Shown here piece by piece: positions 1-32,690 of a stretch of 35,975 nucleotides of DNA. The DNA is from an uncultured Pelagibacteraceae bacterium (GTDB lineage: Bacteria > Pseudomonadota > Alphaproteobacteria > Pelagibacterales > Pelagibacteraceae): the NCBI GenBank assembly GCA_902551455.1, contig CACDDC010000010.1, positions 1-35,975 on the forward strand, written 5' to 3'. The position numbers and the translations under genes are program-made. Below the pieces are notes generated by a model. It made no database searches. It saw only the letters and a program-made list of their open reading frames with translations, and was not told the origin of the DNA. Every line of letters starts with the position of its first letter. Position 1 is the stretch's first letter.

Positions 1-2805
<2,805 letters not shown>

Positions 2806-25764: not shown

Positions 25765-26880
25765 CTAAACATTAAAGCTTCTAAACTCTTTTTTGAAGCC
25801 GCCTAAAAAATAAGGTAATCTTTTTCTTAAATACCAACTAAATTGAGAAATAAAAATATTTCCTTTCATTCCATTATCTATTATTGAATGAGGAAGTTTT
25901 TTTTTTGAGTAAAATATTGCTGCATGAGGAATATTGCTATTTGCAAAAAGAATATGATTAGTTTTAGACAAAATTAGCATATCATTTAAATTTCCTTTTC
26001 CAATTTTATATCTGTGCTTGATATCTTGAGAGTCAAATAGATCAATTTTGTCAGTCGTTCTTACTGAATTTGAATATAAAACTTTGTTACCATAATTTTT
26101 TTTATAAAAATTTAAATAATCAATATCTTCAGTACATATATAAATTTTATCAAATTTATATTTTTTTATTAAAGAATCTGTTGCAAATAACATTTGTTCT
26201 TCAGTTGGTGTATATGGTGCATATCCAGACTTTTTTTGATCTGATCCTCTAAAGCATATTCCCAAAACTTTTTTATTTGTAAATTTTTTATTTACAAAAT
26301 TATTTGAAAAATTTAAAAATTCTTTTTTTATTTTTATATATTTTTTAAATATTTTTTTATGTCTACTATCTAAATATTGAAATCCATAAAAATATTTAAA
26401 TATTGAATCTTTTTTTACTTCTGGAAACCCTTTAATAGAAGTTCTATTATCACATAATATTACATTTTTACTTTTATATACTTCTTCAAGGGAATAGTTT
26501 GACGTTTTATTAAAAAAATAATCCCAAGAGTTTCTAGAGTTACCTATTTTTATTTTACAATTATATAATGTCGGATAATTTTCCATATCTATTACAGGTA
26601 TCATTTTTAATTGATCACATATGAGTAAATTTTGAATTACAAAGTTAAGATTTGAAAAAAAACCTGCTCCAGGTGTTCTTCTGATTACATAAAAAAACTT
26701 ATTCTTATTTTTTTTTCCATATGTTAGGTGTTGTAAATTAAGCTCTCTTATTTCCTTTTTCTTAATTTTTGCAATATATTTTTTAGGTAAGCAAATTGGT
26801 TTTATTTTTTTTCTATAAACATTAATAGGTTTTGCTTTATGTTGATTTTCTAATATTTTTTTTCTTATATAATTTAACAT
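25765..26880 (-). CDS. Fucosyltransferase-like glycosyltransferase
   Basis: This 371-residue cytoplasmic protein without signal or membrane segments resembles the NodZ/O-fucosyltransferase fold. PGAGFFSNLNFVIQNLL near residue 70 resembles the family's acceptor/GDP-site N-terminal motif. GICFRGSDQKKSGYAPYTPTEEQM near residue 207 resembles the GDP-fucose-binding Arg motif. KIYICTEDIDYL and ILSKTNHILFANSN follow. Neighbouring epimerase, gmd and fcl genes supply GDP-L-sugars, which fits a donor role. The acceptor is unknown. It is convergent with the epimerase (23-bp gap) and lies 29 bp after the transaldolase-like gene. Confidence 0.65.
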   Translation of the reverse strand: MLNYIRKKILENQHKAKPINVYRKKIKPICLPKKYIAKIKKKEIRELNLQHLTYGKKNKNKFFYVIRRTPGAGFFSNLNFVIQNLLICDQLKMIPVIDMENYPTLYNCKIKIGNSRNSWDYFFNKTSNYSLEEVYKSKNVILCDNRTSIKGFPEVKKDSIFKYFYGFQYLDSRHKKIFKKYIKIKKEFLNFSNNFVNKKFTNKKVLGICFRGSDQKKSGYAPYTPTEEQMLFATDSLIKKYKFDKIYICTEDIDYLNFYKKNYGNKVLYSNSVRTTDKIDLFDSQDIKHRYKIGKGNLNDMLILSKTNHILFANSNIPHAAIFYSKKKLPHSIIDNGMKGNIFISQFSWYLRKRLPYFLGGFKKEFRSFNV

Positions 26881-26909
26881 GAACTTTAATTATTAAGAAT
26901 ATATAGCTA

Positions 26910-27605
26910 CTAATCAATTCTAAATTTTGATTTTTTGCTATCAATCAAAAAAGTTTTTACAGTATCTATTGTTAATTTTTTAAACGATTTTCCAAAATTT
27001 TCAATTTTTTCAATTATTTGAGGAGGTGTAGTTATTATATGACATTTAAGATTTTTAGCCTGAATATAATTATATGGTTCTCTTACACTTGCCCATAAAA
27101 TTTCAACATTTTTATAGTTTTTTGCAAGTTTAATACTTTTTTTAAATTCTGGTATAGGATCTTTACCTTTATCAGCCATTCTTCCAGCAAATATTGATAT
27201 GATCACTTTAGTTTTTTTATTAACCTTTTTTAAAATTTTTGATGTTTGATTTGCTGTGTAAACAGCCGTAATATTTAATTTAATATTTTTATTATTTAAA
27301 AATTTGATCACCTCTCCCAAAAAAACACCCTTGGAATTCGTTACAGGAATTTTTACATATACTTTTTTTCCCCAATCTTTGATTTTAAGAGCTTGTTTAA
27401 TAATATTTTTTTTATCATCTGCAAATACTTCAAATGAAATTGGTTTGTTTGTTAATTTTAATATTTTTTTACAATAGTCTTTATAATTCTTTGCTCCAGC
27501 TTTCCTAATTAAACTTGGATTGGTTGTAAAGCCTTTGACTATTTTTTTTTTAGTAAATTTCTTAATTTGTTTCAGATCGGCTATATCACAAAATATTTTA
27601 GTCAT
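26910..27605 (-). CDS. Transaldolase / fructose-6-phosphate aldolase family protein
   Basis: This 231-residue protein is of the small transaldolase/FSA subfamily. It has KGFTTNPSLIRKAG near residue 24, FEVFAD near 58, and the Schiff-base lysine at residue 85 in VYVKIPVTN, matching Lys85 of E. coli FSA. ITAVYTANQT and FAGRMADKGKDP follow. It could supply transaldolase activity complementing tkt, or act as a fructose-6-P aldolase; short homologues cannot be split reliably by eye. It follows pntB by 2 bp, so it is likely on the pnt transcript. Confidence 0.85.
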   Translation of the reverse strand: MTKIFCDIADLKQIKKFTKKKIVKGFTTNPSLIRKAGAKNYKDYCKKILKLTNKPISFEVFADDKKNIIKQALKIKDWGKKVYVKIPVTNSKGVFLGEVIKFLNNKNIKLNITAVYTANQTSKILKKVNKKTKVIISIFAGRMADKGKDPIPEFKKSIKLAKNYKNVEILWASVREPYNYIQAKNLKCHIITTPPQIIEKIENFGKSFKKLTIDTVKTFLIDSKKSKFRID

Positions 27606-27607
27606 TA

Positions 27608-29005
27608 TTAAAGACTTTTGATTATATCTTCTGTCATTTTTTTTGCATCCGCAAAAAGCATGAGTGTATTATCTCTGTAAAATAAATCATTATCAATTCC
27701 AGCATAACCAGGAGACAAGCTTCTTTTAACAAATAAAACTGATTTTGATTTTTCTACATCTAAAATGGGCATTCCATATATTGGGCTTTGTGGGTCAGTT
27801 TTAGCTATAGGATTTGTAACATCATTTGCACCAATGACATATGCAACATCACAATTTGCAAAATCATTATTGATTTCATCTAATTCAAAAACCTCATCGT
27901 AAGGCACATTTGCTTCAGCTAATAATACGTTCATATGTCCCGGCATTCTACCTGCCACTGGATGGATTGCATAAGATACTTTTACACCATTTTTTTTTAA
28001 AACATCTACCATTTCTCTAAGTGCATGTTGAGCTTGTGCTACAGCCATACCATAACCAGGTACAATTATAACTGACGAAGCATTTTTCATTAAAAAAGCT
28101 GCATCATCAGCATTTCCACTTTTTACAGGTTTTTGCTCTTTTGATTTTCCAGAAGAAGATTGTTCGGTTGCTCCCCACCCTCCTAAGATAACATTAAAGA
28201 ACGAACGGTTCATTCCTTTGCACATTATATAAGATAATATTGCGCCAGATGAACCTACTAACGCACCTGTAATTATCAAAGCGGTATTTTCTAAAGTAAA
28301 ACCAATACCTGCTGCTGCCCATCCTGAATAAGAATTTAGCATCGAGATCACAACTGGCATATCAGCTCCACCTATTGGGATGATCAACAAAATTCCTAAT
28401 AAAAATGAAATTAATATTATTGTCCAAAAAAAAGTATCAACTTGAGTTTTACATAAATAAAAAATTAGACCTGCTAAAAATAAACCTAGTGTCAAATTTA
28501 AATAATGTTGACCAAAAAAAGTTATAGGGGAACCGGACATTATTCCTCTTAATTTTAAAAAAGCTATAATAGATCCTGTAAAAGTTATAGCTCCTATTGC
28601 AGCTCCCAAAGACATCTCGATTAAACTTGCAATTTTAATATTTCTTGGTGTACCTAAATTAAATACCTCTGGATTAAGAAAAGCAGAAACAGCTACAAAA
28701 ACAGCTGCTAGTCCAACTAAACTATGAAAACCTGCAACAAGTTCCGGCATTGCTGTCATTGGTATTTTAAATGCAATAAACGCACCTATTGAACCACCAA
28801 TCAACAATAAAATTATCAAATATAAAAAACCTGTGGAAAAGTTACCAGCTGAAACAATTGTGACACCTATAGCTAATGCCATTCCAATTATTCCAAATAA
28901 ATTTCCTTGTCTTGAAGTTTCAGGTGATGAAAGACCTCTGAGAGCTAAAATAAATAGTACTCCTGAAATAAGATAAAAAACTGCTAATACATTTGCTGAA
29001 ATCAT
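27608..29005 (-). CDS. pntB: NAD(P) transhydrogenase subunit beta
   Basis: This 465-residue inner-membrane protein has about eight or nine membrane segments over residues 1-265 and a C-terminal NADP(H)-binding domain. Its nucleotide signature is IIVPGYGMAVAQAQHALREM, followed by YAIHPVAGRMPGHMNVLLAEANVPYD and GANDVTNPIAK. It couples proton entry to hydride transfer from NADH to NADP+. The start overlaps the pntAB stop by 4 bp. It is part of the three-subunit Rhodospirillum-type enzyme. Confidence 0.97.
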   Translation of the reverse strand: MISANVLAVFYLISGVLFILALRGLSSPETSRQGNLFGIIGMALAIGVTIVSAGNFSTGFLYLIILLLIGGSIGAFIAFKIPMTAMPELVAGFHSLVGLAAVFVAVSAFLNPEVFNLGTPRNIKIASLIEMSLGAAIGAITFTGSIIAFLKLRGIMSGSPITFFGQHYLNLTLGLFLAGLIFYLCKTQVDTFFWTIILISFLLGILLIIPIGGADMPVVISMLNSYSGWAAAGIGFTLENTALIITGALVGSSGAILSYIMCKGMNRSFFNVILGGWGATEQSSSGKSKEQKPVKSGNADDAAFLMKNASSVIIVPGYGMAVAQAQHALREMVDVLKKNGVKVSYAIHPVAGRMPGHMNVLLAEANVPYDEVFELDEINNDFANCDVAYVIGANDVTNPIAKTDPQSPIYGMPILDVEKSKSVLFVKRSLSPGYAGIDNDLFYRDNTLMLFADAKKMTEDIIKSL

Positions 29006-29313
29006 TTTTTATCTTTCTTTTTTTTTTTGTACATAGCTAGCATTCTTTGAGTAACTAAAAAGCCTCCAAATATGTTTACCGCTGCTAAAATAATAGCTAA
29101 AAATCCAAAAATATTTGCAGTGCTGAATATGTTTCTAGTTTCTCCAGCTAAAGCTGCAATTATAGCTCCAACTATAATTACTGACGAAATAGCATTTGTT
29201 ACAGACATCAATGGAGTATGTAAAGATGGAGTAACACTCCAAACTACGTAATATCCTATAAAAATTGAAAGAATAAAAATGCTAAGTCTAAATATAAATG
29301 GGTCTATTTCCAT
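29002..29313 (-). CDS. pntAB: NAD(P) transhydrogenase subunit alpha, membrane part
   Basis: This 103-residue protein has three membrane helices (about residues 7-27, 38-58 and 64-90). It carries the conserved TPLMSVTNAISSVIIVGAI block and ends in a Lys-rich cytoplasmic tail. In E. coli it is fused to the NAD-binding domain; here it is separate, as in Rhodospirillum rubrum. Spacing to pntAA is 4 bp and it overlaps pntB by 4 bp. A run of 11 T at 29018-29028 encodes the lysine tail. Confidence 0.95.
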   Translation of the reverse strand: MEIDPFIFRLSIFILSIFIGYYVVWSVTPSLHTPLMSVTNAISSVIIVGAIIAALAGETRNIFSTANIFGFLAIILAAVNIFGGFLVTQRMLAMYKKKKKDKK

Positions 29314-29317
29314 AGGT

Positions 29318-30403
29318 TTATTTAATTATTGTATTGGTAATAATTTCATCTTCTAAATTAATATTTATTTTTTTTTTTTCTTTATCATATAAATTTGAGA
29401 CAAAATTAAATACATTCTTTGCATAAAGGTTCGAAGAGGAAGTTGGTAATCTATTTAAAATATTTCTTTCACCCATTATTTTTACGCCATTTTTTTCAAT
29501 AATTTTATCAACTTCTGTAAAAGCAGTATTTCCACCTTGCACAGCAGCTAAATCATAAATTATTGATCCTTTTTGCATATTATTTAGCATATTCTCTTTA
29601 ATTATTAGTGGGGCTTTTTTTCCTGGTATTAAAGCTGTACAAATAACAATATCTATTTTTTTTAAAGTTTGACCCAATAATTCCTCTTGTTTTTTTTTAA
29701 AATCATCAGATGCTTCTTTAGCGTATCCATCTTTTGTTTCTAAATTTTCTGAACCCTGAACAGTTAAAAATTTGCCACCTAAACTTTCTACCTGTTCTTT
29801 GGAAGCGGTCCTTACGTCTGTAGCATAAACAATTGCGCCCATTCTTTTAGCAGTAGCAATAGCTTGTAAACCTGCAACTCCGGCACCAACTACTAAAACT
29901 TTAGCGGCAGGTACAGTTCCTGCTGCTGTCATCATCATCGGTATTGCTTTTTCGAAATTAGAAAAAGAATCTACTACTGCTTTGTAACCAGCTAAATTAG
30001 CTTGAGATGAAAGTATATCCATTGACTGAGCTCTTGTAATTCTTGGTAATAATTCTAAAGAAAAAATATTAATCTTCTTAAGTGATAAATTTTTAAGTTT
30101 TTCTTCATTCTCATAAACATTAAAAACACCTATTAAAGTTTGATTTTGCTTTAATTTTTTTAAAGCCTCATCATCTAATAGATTGAGCTGTAATATTATA
30201 TCTGATTTATCAATTACTTCTGCTCTATCAACAAGTTCACATCCTTCTTTTTTATAATCTTGATCTTCAAAACCTAAATGATTTCCATAATTTTTTTCTA
30301 GAATTACTTTAAATCCAATATTTGTATATTTTTTTAATGAGTCGGGAGTGATAGCAATTCTTTTTTCTATTTCTTTATTTTCTGATACTGATCCAATTAT
30401 CAT
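29318..30403 (-). CDS. pntAA: NAD(P) transhydrogenase subunit alpha, soluble NAD-binding part
   Basis: This 361-residue soluble protein is related to alanine dehydrogenase. It has EKRIAITPDSLKKY at the N-terminus and LLPRITRAQSMDILSSQANLAGYKAV (RAQ-SQA region) mid-way. The NAD Rossmann motif VLVVGAGVAGLQAIATAKRMGA runs from about residue 170, and PGKKAPLI is also present. It binds NAD(H). The gene starts 12 bp after rpmJ with an all-A/T spacer and no Shine-Dalgarno. A run of 12 T at 29368-29379 sits near its C-terminus. Confidence 0.96.
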   Translation of the reverse strand: MIIGSVSENKEIEKRIAITPDSLKKYTNIGFKVILEKNYGNHLGFEDQDYKKEGCELVDRAEVIDKSDIILQLNLLDDEALKKLKQNQTLIGVFNVYENEEKLKNLSLKKINIFSLELLPRITRAQSMDILSSQANLAGYKAVVDSFSNFEKAIPMMMTAAGTVPAAKVLVVGAGVAGLQAIATAKRMGAIVYATDVRTASKEQVESLGGKFLTVQGSENLETKDGYAKEASDDFKKKQEELLGQTLKKIDIVICTALIPGKKAPLIIKENMLNNMQKGSIIYDLAAVQGGNTAFTEVDKIIEKNGVKIMGERNILNRLPTSSSNLYAKNVFNFVSNLYDKEKKKININLEDEIITNTIIK

Positions 30404-30415
30404 AAAATAAAAAAA

Positions 30416-30541
30416 CTACTTTTGTCTTGCTTTGAACTTAGGATTTTTTTTATTAATTATATACACTCTGCCCCTTCGTCTTACTAACTTTGAGTTCAGG
30501 TCTCTTTTTTTTAGAGATTTAAGTGAGCTTGCAATTTTCAT
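30416..30541 (-). CDS. rpmJ: 50S ribosomal protein L36
   Basis: This short 41-residue gene reads [18 protein letters not shown] then [23 protein letters not shown]. The block [20 protein letters not shown] is diagnostic of the Cys-free L36 form found in alphaproteobacteria. Its ATG is only 9 nt downstream of the 5S rRNA 3' end on the same strand, with just A/T bases between and no Shine-Dalgarno. pntAA follows after 12 nt. It therefore sits between an rRNA and an energy-metabolism operon, and no terminator is visible on either side. Confidence 0.95.
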
Positions 30542-30550
30542 AATTTTTAA

Positions 30551-30666
30551 GCCTGGCAATGACCTACTCTCCCATATCTTAAGACAAAGTACCATCGGCG
30601 CAGAAAGGCTTGACTTCCGAGTTCGGAATGGGATCGGGTATTACACTTTCGCAATAATCACCAGGC
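30551..30666 (-). rRNA. rrf: 5S ribosomal RNA, free-standing
   Basis: This 116-nt gene is read on the minus strand. Its 5' end GCCTGGTGATTATTGCG pairs with the 3' end CAATGCCAGGC (helix I). The conserved interior CCCGATCCCATTCCGAACTC (loop B/helix III) and GGGAGAGTAGGTC (near the 3' end) are present. No 16S, 23S or spacer tRNA is adjacent. gmd-fcl lies upstream on the same strand and rpmJ 9 nt downstream. It carries its own promoter (30673-30701). Confidence 0.97.
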
Positions 30667-30672
30667 GAAAGC

Positions 30673-30701
30673 GTTATACTTAATATAAATATATTTGTAA
30701 A
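30673..30701 (-). promoter_or_regulatory. Vegetative promoter of the 5S rRNA
   Basis: On the minus strand, -35 TTTACA (30701-30696, 5 of 6 to TTGACA), a 17-nt spacer, and -10 TATAAC (30678-30673, 5 of 6 to TATAAT). Standard spacing puts +1 at 30666, exactly the mature 5' end of 5S. The -35 lies only 9 bp from the end of fcl. It is the best sigma-70 match in the window. Confidence 0.8.
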
Positions 30702-30709
30702 GATTTAAA

Positions 30710-31657
30710 CTAGTTAGAATTTACCTTTATATACTTAAAGTCTTTATATGTATATTTTATTGCTTTTTTAATATCATTCTTAGCTGACCAACCATATCTT
30801 TTAGCTAATGAAACATCCAATATTTTTCTTTTAATTCCATTAGGTTTATTTTTATCAAATTTAATTTTTATATCTCTGGATGGTAACAAAGTTTTCAAAA
30901 AAAGTTTTGTAATACCTCTGATAGTATCTTCTTTTCCTGTGCCTATATTGATCAAGGAATGTGAGGTTTTTTTATTCATAAAATAAATACAAGCATCTGC
31001 TATATCATCAACATATATTATTTCTCTTTTAGGTTTTCCATCTCCCCATAAAGTAATGGTATTTTTATTATTTTTTTCTATTTTATAAATTTTCTTAATA
31101 AGAGAAGGTATAAAATGTGAATTTAAAGAATTATATTTATCATTAGGACCAAAGGTATTTGTGGGCATTAGACATTTATAATTTGTTCCGTATTGATGAT
31201 TGTAACTTTCACACATTTTTATTCCTGCAATTTTAGCTATTGCATAGGGTTCATTAGTTTTTTCTAAAGGTCCACATAAAATATCTTTTTCTTTCATAGG
31301 CTGTTTAGCATTTAAAGAATAAATACAGCTTGATCCCAAAAAAATTAAATTTTTTATACCTGCTAAATATGCTGAATGAATAAGATTATTTTGTATGTTT
31401 AAATTCTCATAAATAAATTCAGCTTTATAAGTATTATTTGCATATACACCACCAACTTTCGCAGCTGCAATAAAAATAAATTTTGGTTTTATTTTTTTTA
31501 AAAAATTTAGAACCTTTGTTTGATTATTTAAATCTAGATCTGTGCGTTTTTTAACAAATATATTCTTATAACCTTTAGATATCAATTTACGATAAATAGC
31601 ACTTCCTACTAAACCTGTATGTCCCGCAATATAAATTTTAGAATTATAGTTGATCAT
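30710..31657 (-). CDS. fcl: GDP-L-fucose synthase
   Basis: This 315-residue SDR epimerase-reductase turns GDP-4-keto-6-deoxy-mannose into GDP-L-fucose. The N-terminal [18 protein letters not shown] binds [26 protein letters not shown], the serine in FLGSSCIYS, and [16 protein letters not shown] (Tyr-Lys pair) are typical of WcaG/Fcl, as is [12 protein letters not shown]. It overlaps gmd by 14 bp, the usual gmd-fcl pair. Transcription heads into the 5S gene 43 bp on, with no terminator between. Confidence 0.95.
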
Positions 31658-32690
31658 TCGAAATTTTTCTCATTTCAGAAGTAATCATATCTTTAACAAG
31701 TGTTTTAATATCTATCTTGCTTTTCCATTTTAATTCTTTTTTAGCTTTTCTTGGATCTCCCAATAAAGTATCTACTTCAAGTGGTCGGTAGTAAGATTTA
31801 TCACATTCAACAATTATATTGCCGTTTGAGTCTATACACTTTGTATTTTTTCCTTTTCCTTTCCATTTAAATTGTATTTTTAATTCATTTAAAACCATTT
31901 CCACGAATTGTTTGACTGAATGTTGTTTACCTGTCGCTATAACATAATCTTGAGGTTTTTTTTGTTGTAACATTTTCCACATAGCTTCTACATAATCACT
32001 TGCATGACCCCAGTCTCTTTTCGCATCAAGATTTCCTAAAAAAATTTTTTTTTGCATTCCAAATTTTACTCTGCAAAGTCCCATTACAATTTTTCTTGTA
32101 ACAAATGTCTCGCCTCTTACTGGACTCTCGTGATTAAACAAAATACCGTTACAAGCAAATATTTTATAAGCCTCTCGATAATTTACAGTTATCCAATGAG
32201 CATAGACTTTTGCAACTCCATAGGGACTTCTTGGATAAAATCCAGTTTTTTCATTTTGCGGAACTTGACGAACTTTTCCATACATTTCAGAAGTTCCCGC
32301 TTGATAAAACTTAGTTTTTTTTTCTAATCTATGAAATTTAATTGCTTCAAGTATTCTCAGCGCACCAATTGCATCTGCATTTGCAGTATATTCGGGTACT
32401 TCAAAAGATACGGCAACATGAGATTGAGCTGCAAGATTATATATTTCGTCTGGTTTAACTTTTTGAATTATACTTGATACTGATATTGAGTCTGTAACAT
32501 CTCCATAATGTAAAATAAAATTTCTTTTTTTTTGGTGAGGGTCCTGATAAATATGATCTATTCTTCCTGTGTTTAGTGATGAAGATCTTCTCTTAACTCC
32601 ATGAACTATATATTTTTTTTTTAATAAAAATTCTGATAGATATGATCCATCTTGCCCCGTTACACCAAATATTAAAGCAACTTTTTTCAT
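31644..32690 (-). CDS. gmd: GDP-mannose 4,6-dehydratase
   Basis: This 348-residue SDR dehydratase makes GDP-4-keto-6-deoxy-D-mannose. Diagnostic blocks: [17 protein letters not shown] at the N-terminus, [50 protein letters not shown], the catalytic Tyr-Lys in [12 protein letters not shown], and [18 protein letters not shown]. It is followed by fcl with a 14-bp overlap, giving the two-step GDP-L-fucose route. A 68-bp A/T-rich gap separates it from the upstream membrane-protein gene; TATACT at 32721-32716 is a weak -10 candidate. Confidence 0.97.

Follow-up and report, generated by a model that had tools for sequence, protein, structure and literature searches.

A conserved candidate promoter at the 5′ end of the unlinked 5S rRNA gene of Pelagibacteraceae

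Comparative sequence analysis indicates that the 5S rRNA gene of Pelagibacteraceae, which lies apart from 16S and 23S, probably heads a sigma-70 transcription unit of its own, in which transcription would begin within about one base of helix I, leave no 5′ leader and read on into rpmJ or an epimerase-like gene; we hold this reading with considerable confidence. Independent transcription of 5S from its 5′ end is well supported by the conservation of the predicted promoter among relatives. That the rRNA operon is split is already known; the placement of the start and the fusion of 5S to an mRNA are the new and testable part.

SAR11 is among the most abundant groups of bacteria in the ocean. If its 5S does have its own start, lacks a leader and forms the leading part of an mRNA for a ribosomal protein, then a shared transcript is not needed for equal rRNA dosage and the 5′ processing of an rRNA is dispensable. 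Such an arrangement would also offer a clean natural system for studying how the amounts of 5S and 23S are kept in step, and would suggest that a promoter forms the right-hand border of the exchangeable surface island.

The 5S gene and its candidate promoter

The window (the whole 35,975-nt stretch of DNA that was analysed) carries on its minus strand, at 30665–30551, a match to the Rfam 5S_rRNA family (RF00001) that spans the full model (positions 1–120) and scores 96.3 bits against a gathering score of 38. Together with the G at 30666, this defines the 5S gene as 30551..30666, the single 5S found in its own assembly (983,926 b, 38 contigs, 79% complete). Immediately upstream on the same strand lie a −35 hexamer TTTACA (30696..30701), a 17-nt spacer (30679..30695), a −10 hexamer TATAAC (30673..30678) and, as read from the sequence, a 6-nt discriminator GCTTTC (30667..30672) that places a C at −1. 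The predicted +1 is the G at 30666, the first base of helix I, which pairs with C30551 in the predicted fold. The original prediction had placed TTTACA-17-TATAAC upstream of 5S at these coordinates and was correct to do so: TATAAC ends 6 nt upstream of G30666, and both the near-consensus hexamers and their spacing (within the 16–18 nt range) are those of a sigma-70 promoter and recur in relatives.

These elements sit in a 43-nt gap between 5S and the stop codon, at 30710, of a gene for an fcl-like NAD-dependent epimerase (30710..31657, minus strand), so that the place which 23S would occupy in a linked rRNA operon is taken by an epimerase gene; the genes upstream of 5S in the window include fcl-like, gmd and glycosyltransferase genes. 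When 5S and the linker that follows it are folded together, helix I forms and the energy is no better than that of shuffled sequences (z −0.59).

Taken in isolation, the window motif is not significant, the pattern TTTACA-N15..18-TATAA matching once in the whole window against 0.72 matches expected by chance. A general promoter scan of 26800–31700 returned 21 sites, fewer than in shuffled sequence (29.1), and the 5S promoter is missing from these because the scan requires a T at the sixth base of the −10 hexamer. With the motif near chance level in the window, it is conservation across relatives that decides whether it is real.

Separation from 23S

The original prediction also held that 5S does not lie beside 16S or 23S, and this is borne out in the window's own genome, where an epimerase gene is upstream of 5S, 16S is on contig C1 and 5S on contig C10; the end of C1 at which 23S would be expected reads N, so the 5S–23S distance is not measurable there. 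In the window's family (f1), 5S is INDEPENDENCE from the island as well as from 23S. For comparison, in a second, sister family of the same order (f2), in which 5S is linked to 23S, the coordinates of the two genes are 84–97 apart in 27/27 cases.

The 23S comparison within f1 covered 21 genomes with a 23S match. Eight of these (G003, G024, G123, G125, in which the 23S match is partial, G129, G135, G140 and G188) have 5S and 23S on one contig and the same strand at a distance of 35–62 kb, so that distance and strand together document a split rRNA operon in eight related genomes. Twelve others have the two genes on different contigs, and since those 23S stretches examined that had no match consist of N, missing 23S matches are not evidence of absence. 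In G165 (L096, L186), 5S lies ~437 kb from the rRNA operon and on the other strand, with TTTACA..TATAAC and rpmJ kept; this looks like a natural translocation that left the 5S unit whole.

The nearest long open reading frame upstream of 5S is on the opposite strand at 23 of 93 loci and on the same strand at 69, the window included; none was found at one. The opposite-strand cases imply that read-through from upstream genes is not a general source of 5S, while it could add to 5S in the window. The earlier claim that 5S is made independently is supported by comparison insofar as the gene has its own conserved predicted promoter, and is weakened by the same-strand gene upstream here, from which some read-through is possible.

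The left border of the island shows a pattern similar to that upstream of 5S. The 13 nt after 23S (tgcactgaaaaaa) are identical in 17/17 loci (L218–L234) and divergence sets in directly afterwards, which places this border at near base resolution. In f2 (27 loci among L049–L082), several loci have genes resembling nucleotide-sugar dehydrogenases or epimerases after 5S, judged by N-terminal sequence only, as if the surface island of that family might lie on the other side of 5S.

Conservation of the promoter

A first search of 121 genomes found 5S in 82, comprising 55 in genus g1 of family f1 and 27 in f2, and a second search of 398 f1 genomes found it in 323. To the first 55 loci we added 41 of our own selection from these 323 genomes, which is not a random draw. 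The resulting set holds 96 records representing 12 genera. Upstream sequence is available for 95 of them, covering 11 genera; the exception is L134, and genus g15 is therefore absent from the promoter counts. Three loci were excluded: L110 lies at the same place as L055, and L115 and L116 are second or partial copies.

A strict motif (TT[TG]ACA-15..18-TATAA, ending 4–8 nt before the G) is present at 50 of the 95 f1 loci; 200 dinucleotide shuffles gave 0.035 such loci on average and never more than 1, and the motif stands at 0 of 27 loci upstream of the linked 5S of f2. By genus, it occurs in g1 (43/67), g6 (3/3) and g8 (4/6), that is, in only 3 of the 11 genera. A looser motif, with at least 5 of 6 matches at −35 and at least 4 of 6 at −10, is found at 82 of 95 loci and in all 11 genera, a count that has no shuffle control of its own. 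On average 10.26 of the 12 hexamer positions match, as compared with 7.47 in shuffles (95th and 99th percentiles 9 and 10). At four of the 95 loci only 8 of the 12 positions match, close to the shuffle average of 7.5, and these low scores, together with the restriction of the strict motif to three genera, mean that not every member of the family has a clear promoter. Conservation of the hexamers between strains, which the original prediction had proposed as a check, is nevertheless what both the strict and the looser counts show.

A further set of 80 named loci, drawn from at least 120 stretches, was picked by the presence of rpmJ after 5S; two (L287 and L310) were unusable. Among the matches listed, the strict motif is present at 60 of the 78 usable loci, in a set that partly overlaps the first, and at 52 of the 68 that have a 60-nt upstream absent from the first set.

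An information profile was computed from 79 non-redundant upstream sequences (<70% identity over −60..−1; loci with <60 nt upstream left out). It peaks at −34..−29 and −13..−7, the positions of the two hexamers, and there is in addition a pyrimidine bias at −5..−1; beyond −36 no column exceeds 0.18 bits. The base at −1 is T or C in 91% of these sequences (background 51%). Between pairs of loci, identity is 0.83 in the −35 and 0.78 in the −10 hexamer, with 0.38 for the upstream region and 0.43 for the spacer, whose sequence is not conserved among loci; when the best hexamers are picked in shuffled upstream sequences, identity is 0.47 (−35) and 0.42 (−10). The G itself served as the alignment anchor and is partly required by the pattern used to locate it, and neither its invariance nor its pairing at 93/93 loci is counted as evidence, as distinct from the base at −1 and its lack of pairing, which are.

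Predicted start and 5′ end

Sigma-70 RNA polymerase prefers to start ~7 bp after the −10 element, at a purine that follows a pyrimidine, and G30666 stands at this preferred distance. A strong promoter call is obtained at 76 of 94 loci, and at 73 of these the −10 hexamer ends 5–7 nt before the G (mostly 5 or 6, sometimes 7). The same procedure applied to 46 tRNA genes, from the window's own genome and its relative G135, gave 13 strong calls at distances scattered from 2 to 39 nt, so that a fixed start spacing is not general in the lineage; the tRNA promoters are also less clear than those of 5S.

The base at −1 pairs with its opposite at 26 of 93 loci, against 27.1 expected, and since this is not above chance helix I ends at the G of the predicted start. 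No flanking duplex suited to processing is found in f1 (−2.3 kcal/mol over 93 loci, shuffled −2.6), whereas the flanks of the linked 5S in f2 form a strong one (mean −14.5 kcal/mol, 27 loci). Together these comparisons support a promoter placed so that transcription would begin at the first base of helix I, which leaves no room for a leader.

The original prediction put +1 exactly on the mature 5′ nucleotide. Homology and the pairing of helix I speak for this placement on the first base of 5S, which would hold to within the one base by which the mature end could differ; E. coli 5S has one additional base before this G at its 5′ end. It had been suggested further that 5S might need no 5′ processing, and the lack of both leader room and a processing stem fits that idea. 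However, an RNase E/G gene is present in 13/13 genomes and an RNase J-like match in 12/13, nine of them over the curated cut-off (none was found in the window's own, incomplete assembly), and with these enzymes in the family 5′ trimming could occur.

We also considered whether the promoter tracks the helix in 5S genes of the GCCTGG and GCCGG types. This argument was dropped: the difference between the two types is the loss of a helix pair, and a constant distance to the G is therefore not independent evidence.

Genes downstream of 5S

The original prediction had described 5S as solitary. That description has to be abandoned, as 5S heads a run of protein genes and a coding sequence starts 9 nt after it. 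The gap is an AT-rich linker (30542..30550) in which, from its sequence, the cleavage that generates the 3′ end would probably take place. It is followed by rpmJ (30416..30541; PF00444, 2e-16), encoding the 41-aa ribosomal protein bL36, and, after 12 nt, by pntAA (29318..30403), encoding the alpha subunit of NAD(P) transhydrogenase. The next two genes are pntAB (29002..29313), for the 4TM part of the transhydrogenase, and pntB (27608..29005), for its beta subunit; 2 nt further on is a gene of the transaldolase/fructose-6-phosphate aldolase family (26910..27605), the possible end of the unit. All five are on the minus strand with tiny gaps. Transcription of the NAD(P) transhydrogenase genes may likewise start from the 5S promoter (window 26910–30666).

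This arrangement is widespread. A coding sequence begins within 38 nt of 5S at 91 of 96 loci (60 nt examined), the first gene being rpmJ at 62 of them, 6–28 nt away, and epimerase-like at 29. The epimerase-like class consists of 27 genes, at 8–38 nt, called by N-terminal motif rather than by profile, and two (L102 and L132) added from the class ‘other’. Within the first 55 loci, rpmJ follows the epimerase in 15 of 16 cases, and the sixteenth has no match within its available sequence. The five loci at which no coding start was found are L114, which ends inside 5S, L028, L032, L033 and L046.

The linker has a median length of 11 nt and is 90% AT. It is shorter than 24 nt at 80 of 96 loci, into which a hairpin terminator with its T tract hardly fits, and an adjoining same-strand coding gene with no terminator between would, at 91/96 loci, make 5S part of an apparent 5S–protein operon. 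With a coding gene right after 5S, the primary transcript probably extends beyond 5S and 3′ processing is to be expected. All 80 of the named matches listed for the 5S–rpmJ junction pattern, from at least 120 stretches, belong to Pelagibacterales, and there were 0 matches in viral contigs. Three loci (L028, L032 and L033) have an AT-rich hairpin or T tract after 5S and no adjoining coding gene, with rpmJ 862 nt further on.

Proposed mechanism and alternatives

We envisage that a surface-polysaccharide island parted 5S from 16S–23S in Pelagibacteraceae, and that 5S would now stand at the head of a separate sigma-70 transcription unit. RNA polymerase would start at, or ~1 base from, the first nucleotide of helix I (G30666), giving no 5′ leader, and would continue into rpmJ (in most genomes, the window included) or into an epimerase-like gene and then rpmJ; here pntAA–pntAB–pntB would come next. 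The 5S sequence would fold co-transcriptionally, an endonuclease, most likely RNase E, would cut the AU-rich, single-stranded ~10-nt linker, and a 3′ exonuclease would trim and finish the 5S end exposed by this cut. The remainder would serve as mRNA, beginning a few bases ahead of its start codon. The actual start site, the 5′-triphosphate end, the cutting enzyme and co-transcription are what we infer here.

A more speculative extension, to which we attach only limited credence, is that 5S doubles as a structured 5′ leader for the bL36 mRNA. The triphosphate would be kept, and one cut would both complete 5S and free or limit rpmJ translation, so that 5S supply would be tied to a protein of the large subunit, a substitute for the operon link with 23S that was lost.

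Other readings of the same data differ in how much of this scheme they would leave intact. The promoter may be real and yet the start lie 1–3 nt off, or the 5′ end be trimmed by RNase E or RNase J, in which case mature 5S would be monophosphorylated at its 5′ end and nothing would follow from the start coinciding with that end. We regard this as possible, if somewhat doubtful: the distribution of RNase E/G and RNase J-like genes described above (13/13 and 12/13 genomes), the variation of the −10 to G distance between 5 and 7 nt and the one-base-longer 5S of E. coli would all accommodate it, but the G has a pyrimidine beside it at −1, and ahead of it there is only the pyrimidine bias at −5..−1, with pairing not above chance and hence no sign of a processing site. 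Very improbable, by comparison, is that 5S comes mainly from read-through of island genes (fcl/gmd here) and is excised in the manner of a linked 5S, the hexamers being chance products of AT-rich sequence. A same-strand upstream gene at 69/93 loci, the window among them, and the expectation of 0.72 motifs in the window alone are what such a reading could draw on, yet the motif is conserved far above shuffles, the upstream gene is on the opposite strand at 23/93 loci and the processing stem is absent.

A further alternative concerns the 3′ side. There, 5S and rpmJ might be adjacent and separately transcribed, with 5S ending by factor-dependent termination or by 3′ processing and decay, and rpmJ starting from within 5S. 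That 5S can be expressed without an adjoining rpmJ is suggested by the hairpins or T tracts of L028, L032 and L033. The linker, however, leaves little room for a terminator at 80/96 loci, and a promoter for rpmJ would need to be located within the 5S sequence; we consider separate transcription unlikely.

Comparison with known systems

The split rRNA operon of SAR11 and the hypervariable region HVR2 have been known since 2007 (Wilhelm 2007, PMC2217521), and the available portions of later papers agree (PMC4053759, PMC3815206, PMC12421898, PMC11898729, PMC7318151). According to the portion available of one of these, the split arrangement holds for all bona fide Pelagibacterales (PMC7318151), and translocations of 5S or of the island have already been published (PMC12421898, PMC11898729, both in the portions available). 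The locus studied here resembles HVR2 as so described, with 5S as the right border of a cell-surface island (an O-chain cluster in the portion available of PMC11898729) and 16S–23S as the left. The HVR2 papers differ in that, in their available portions, they describe position and not transcription; the word ‘promoter’ has 0 occurrences in the main text of PMC11898729. Our literature search, which left subscription journals mostly outside its reach, found no report of a SAR11 5S promoter, mapped start or mature 5′ end, and none of SAR11 5S–rpmJ co-transcription.

In the crenarchaea and Thermoplasma, as in Pelagibacteraceae, 5S is unlinked from 23S, and it is transcribed independently, as stated for many archaea in the available part of PMC8339473; these organisms differ from SAR11 in using the archaeal transcription machinery. 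Among bacteria, Leptospira likewise has a 5S far from 16S and 23S, with which it is most probably not expressed together (PMC3037291, in the portion available). The linked 16S–23S–5S operon of f2 contains 5S of the same family (RF00001) but differs from f1 in the short 23S–5S interval (84–97), its long flanking duplex and the lack of a promoter.

A different RNA has been described close to the same genes, namely the pntA RNA motif, for which the available portion of the source reports an rpmJ–pntA arrangement in HTCC1062 and names 5S and rmlB as the genes most often found 5′ of the motif (Meyer 2009, PMC2704228). Co-transcription of 5S and rpmJ is not discussed in that portion, and the text of the paper contains neither ‘promoter’ nor ‘transcription start’. 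The window differs in having no room for the motif, as only 12 nt separate rpmJ from pntAA.

Comparison with the 16S promoter

The 16S genes of the same genus have a recognisable promoter of another sequence. TTGATT-16-TATAAG is present at 15 of the 20 loci for which 300 nt of upstream sequence are available (L153–L175), the exceptions being L153, L154, L155, L164 and L173. It lies 187–214 nt before a conserved AGAGTTTGAT near the start of 16S, from which it is separated by a long conserved leader. The exact promoter pattern gave one stray match upstream of 16S in 23 loci, as is explained by its demand for a T at the last base of the −10 hexamer. The idea that 16S and 5S share one promoter type does not hold in general, given the TTGATT-16-TATAAG of 16S. 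At L028, L032 and L033, the −35 hexamer of 5S reads TTGATT, like that of the 16S promoter.
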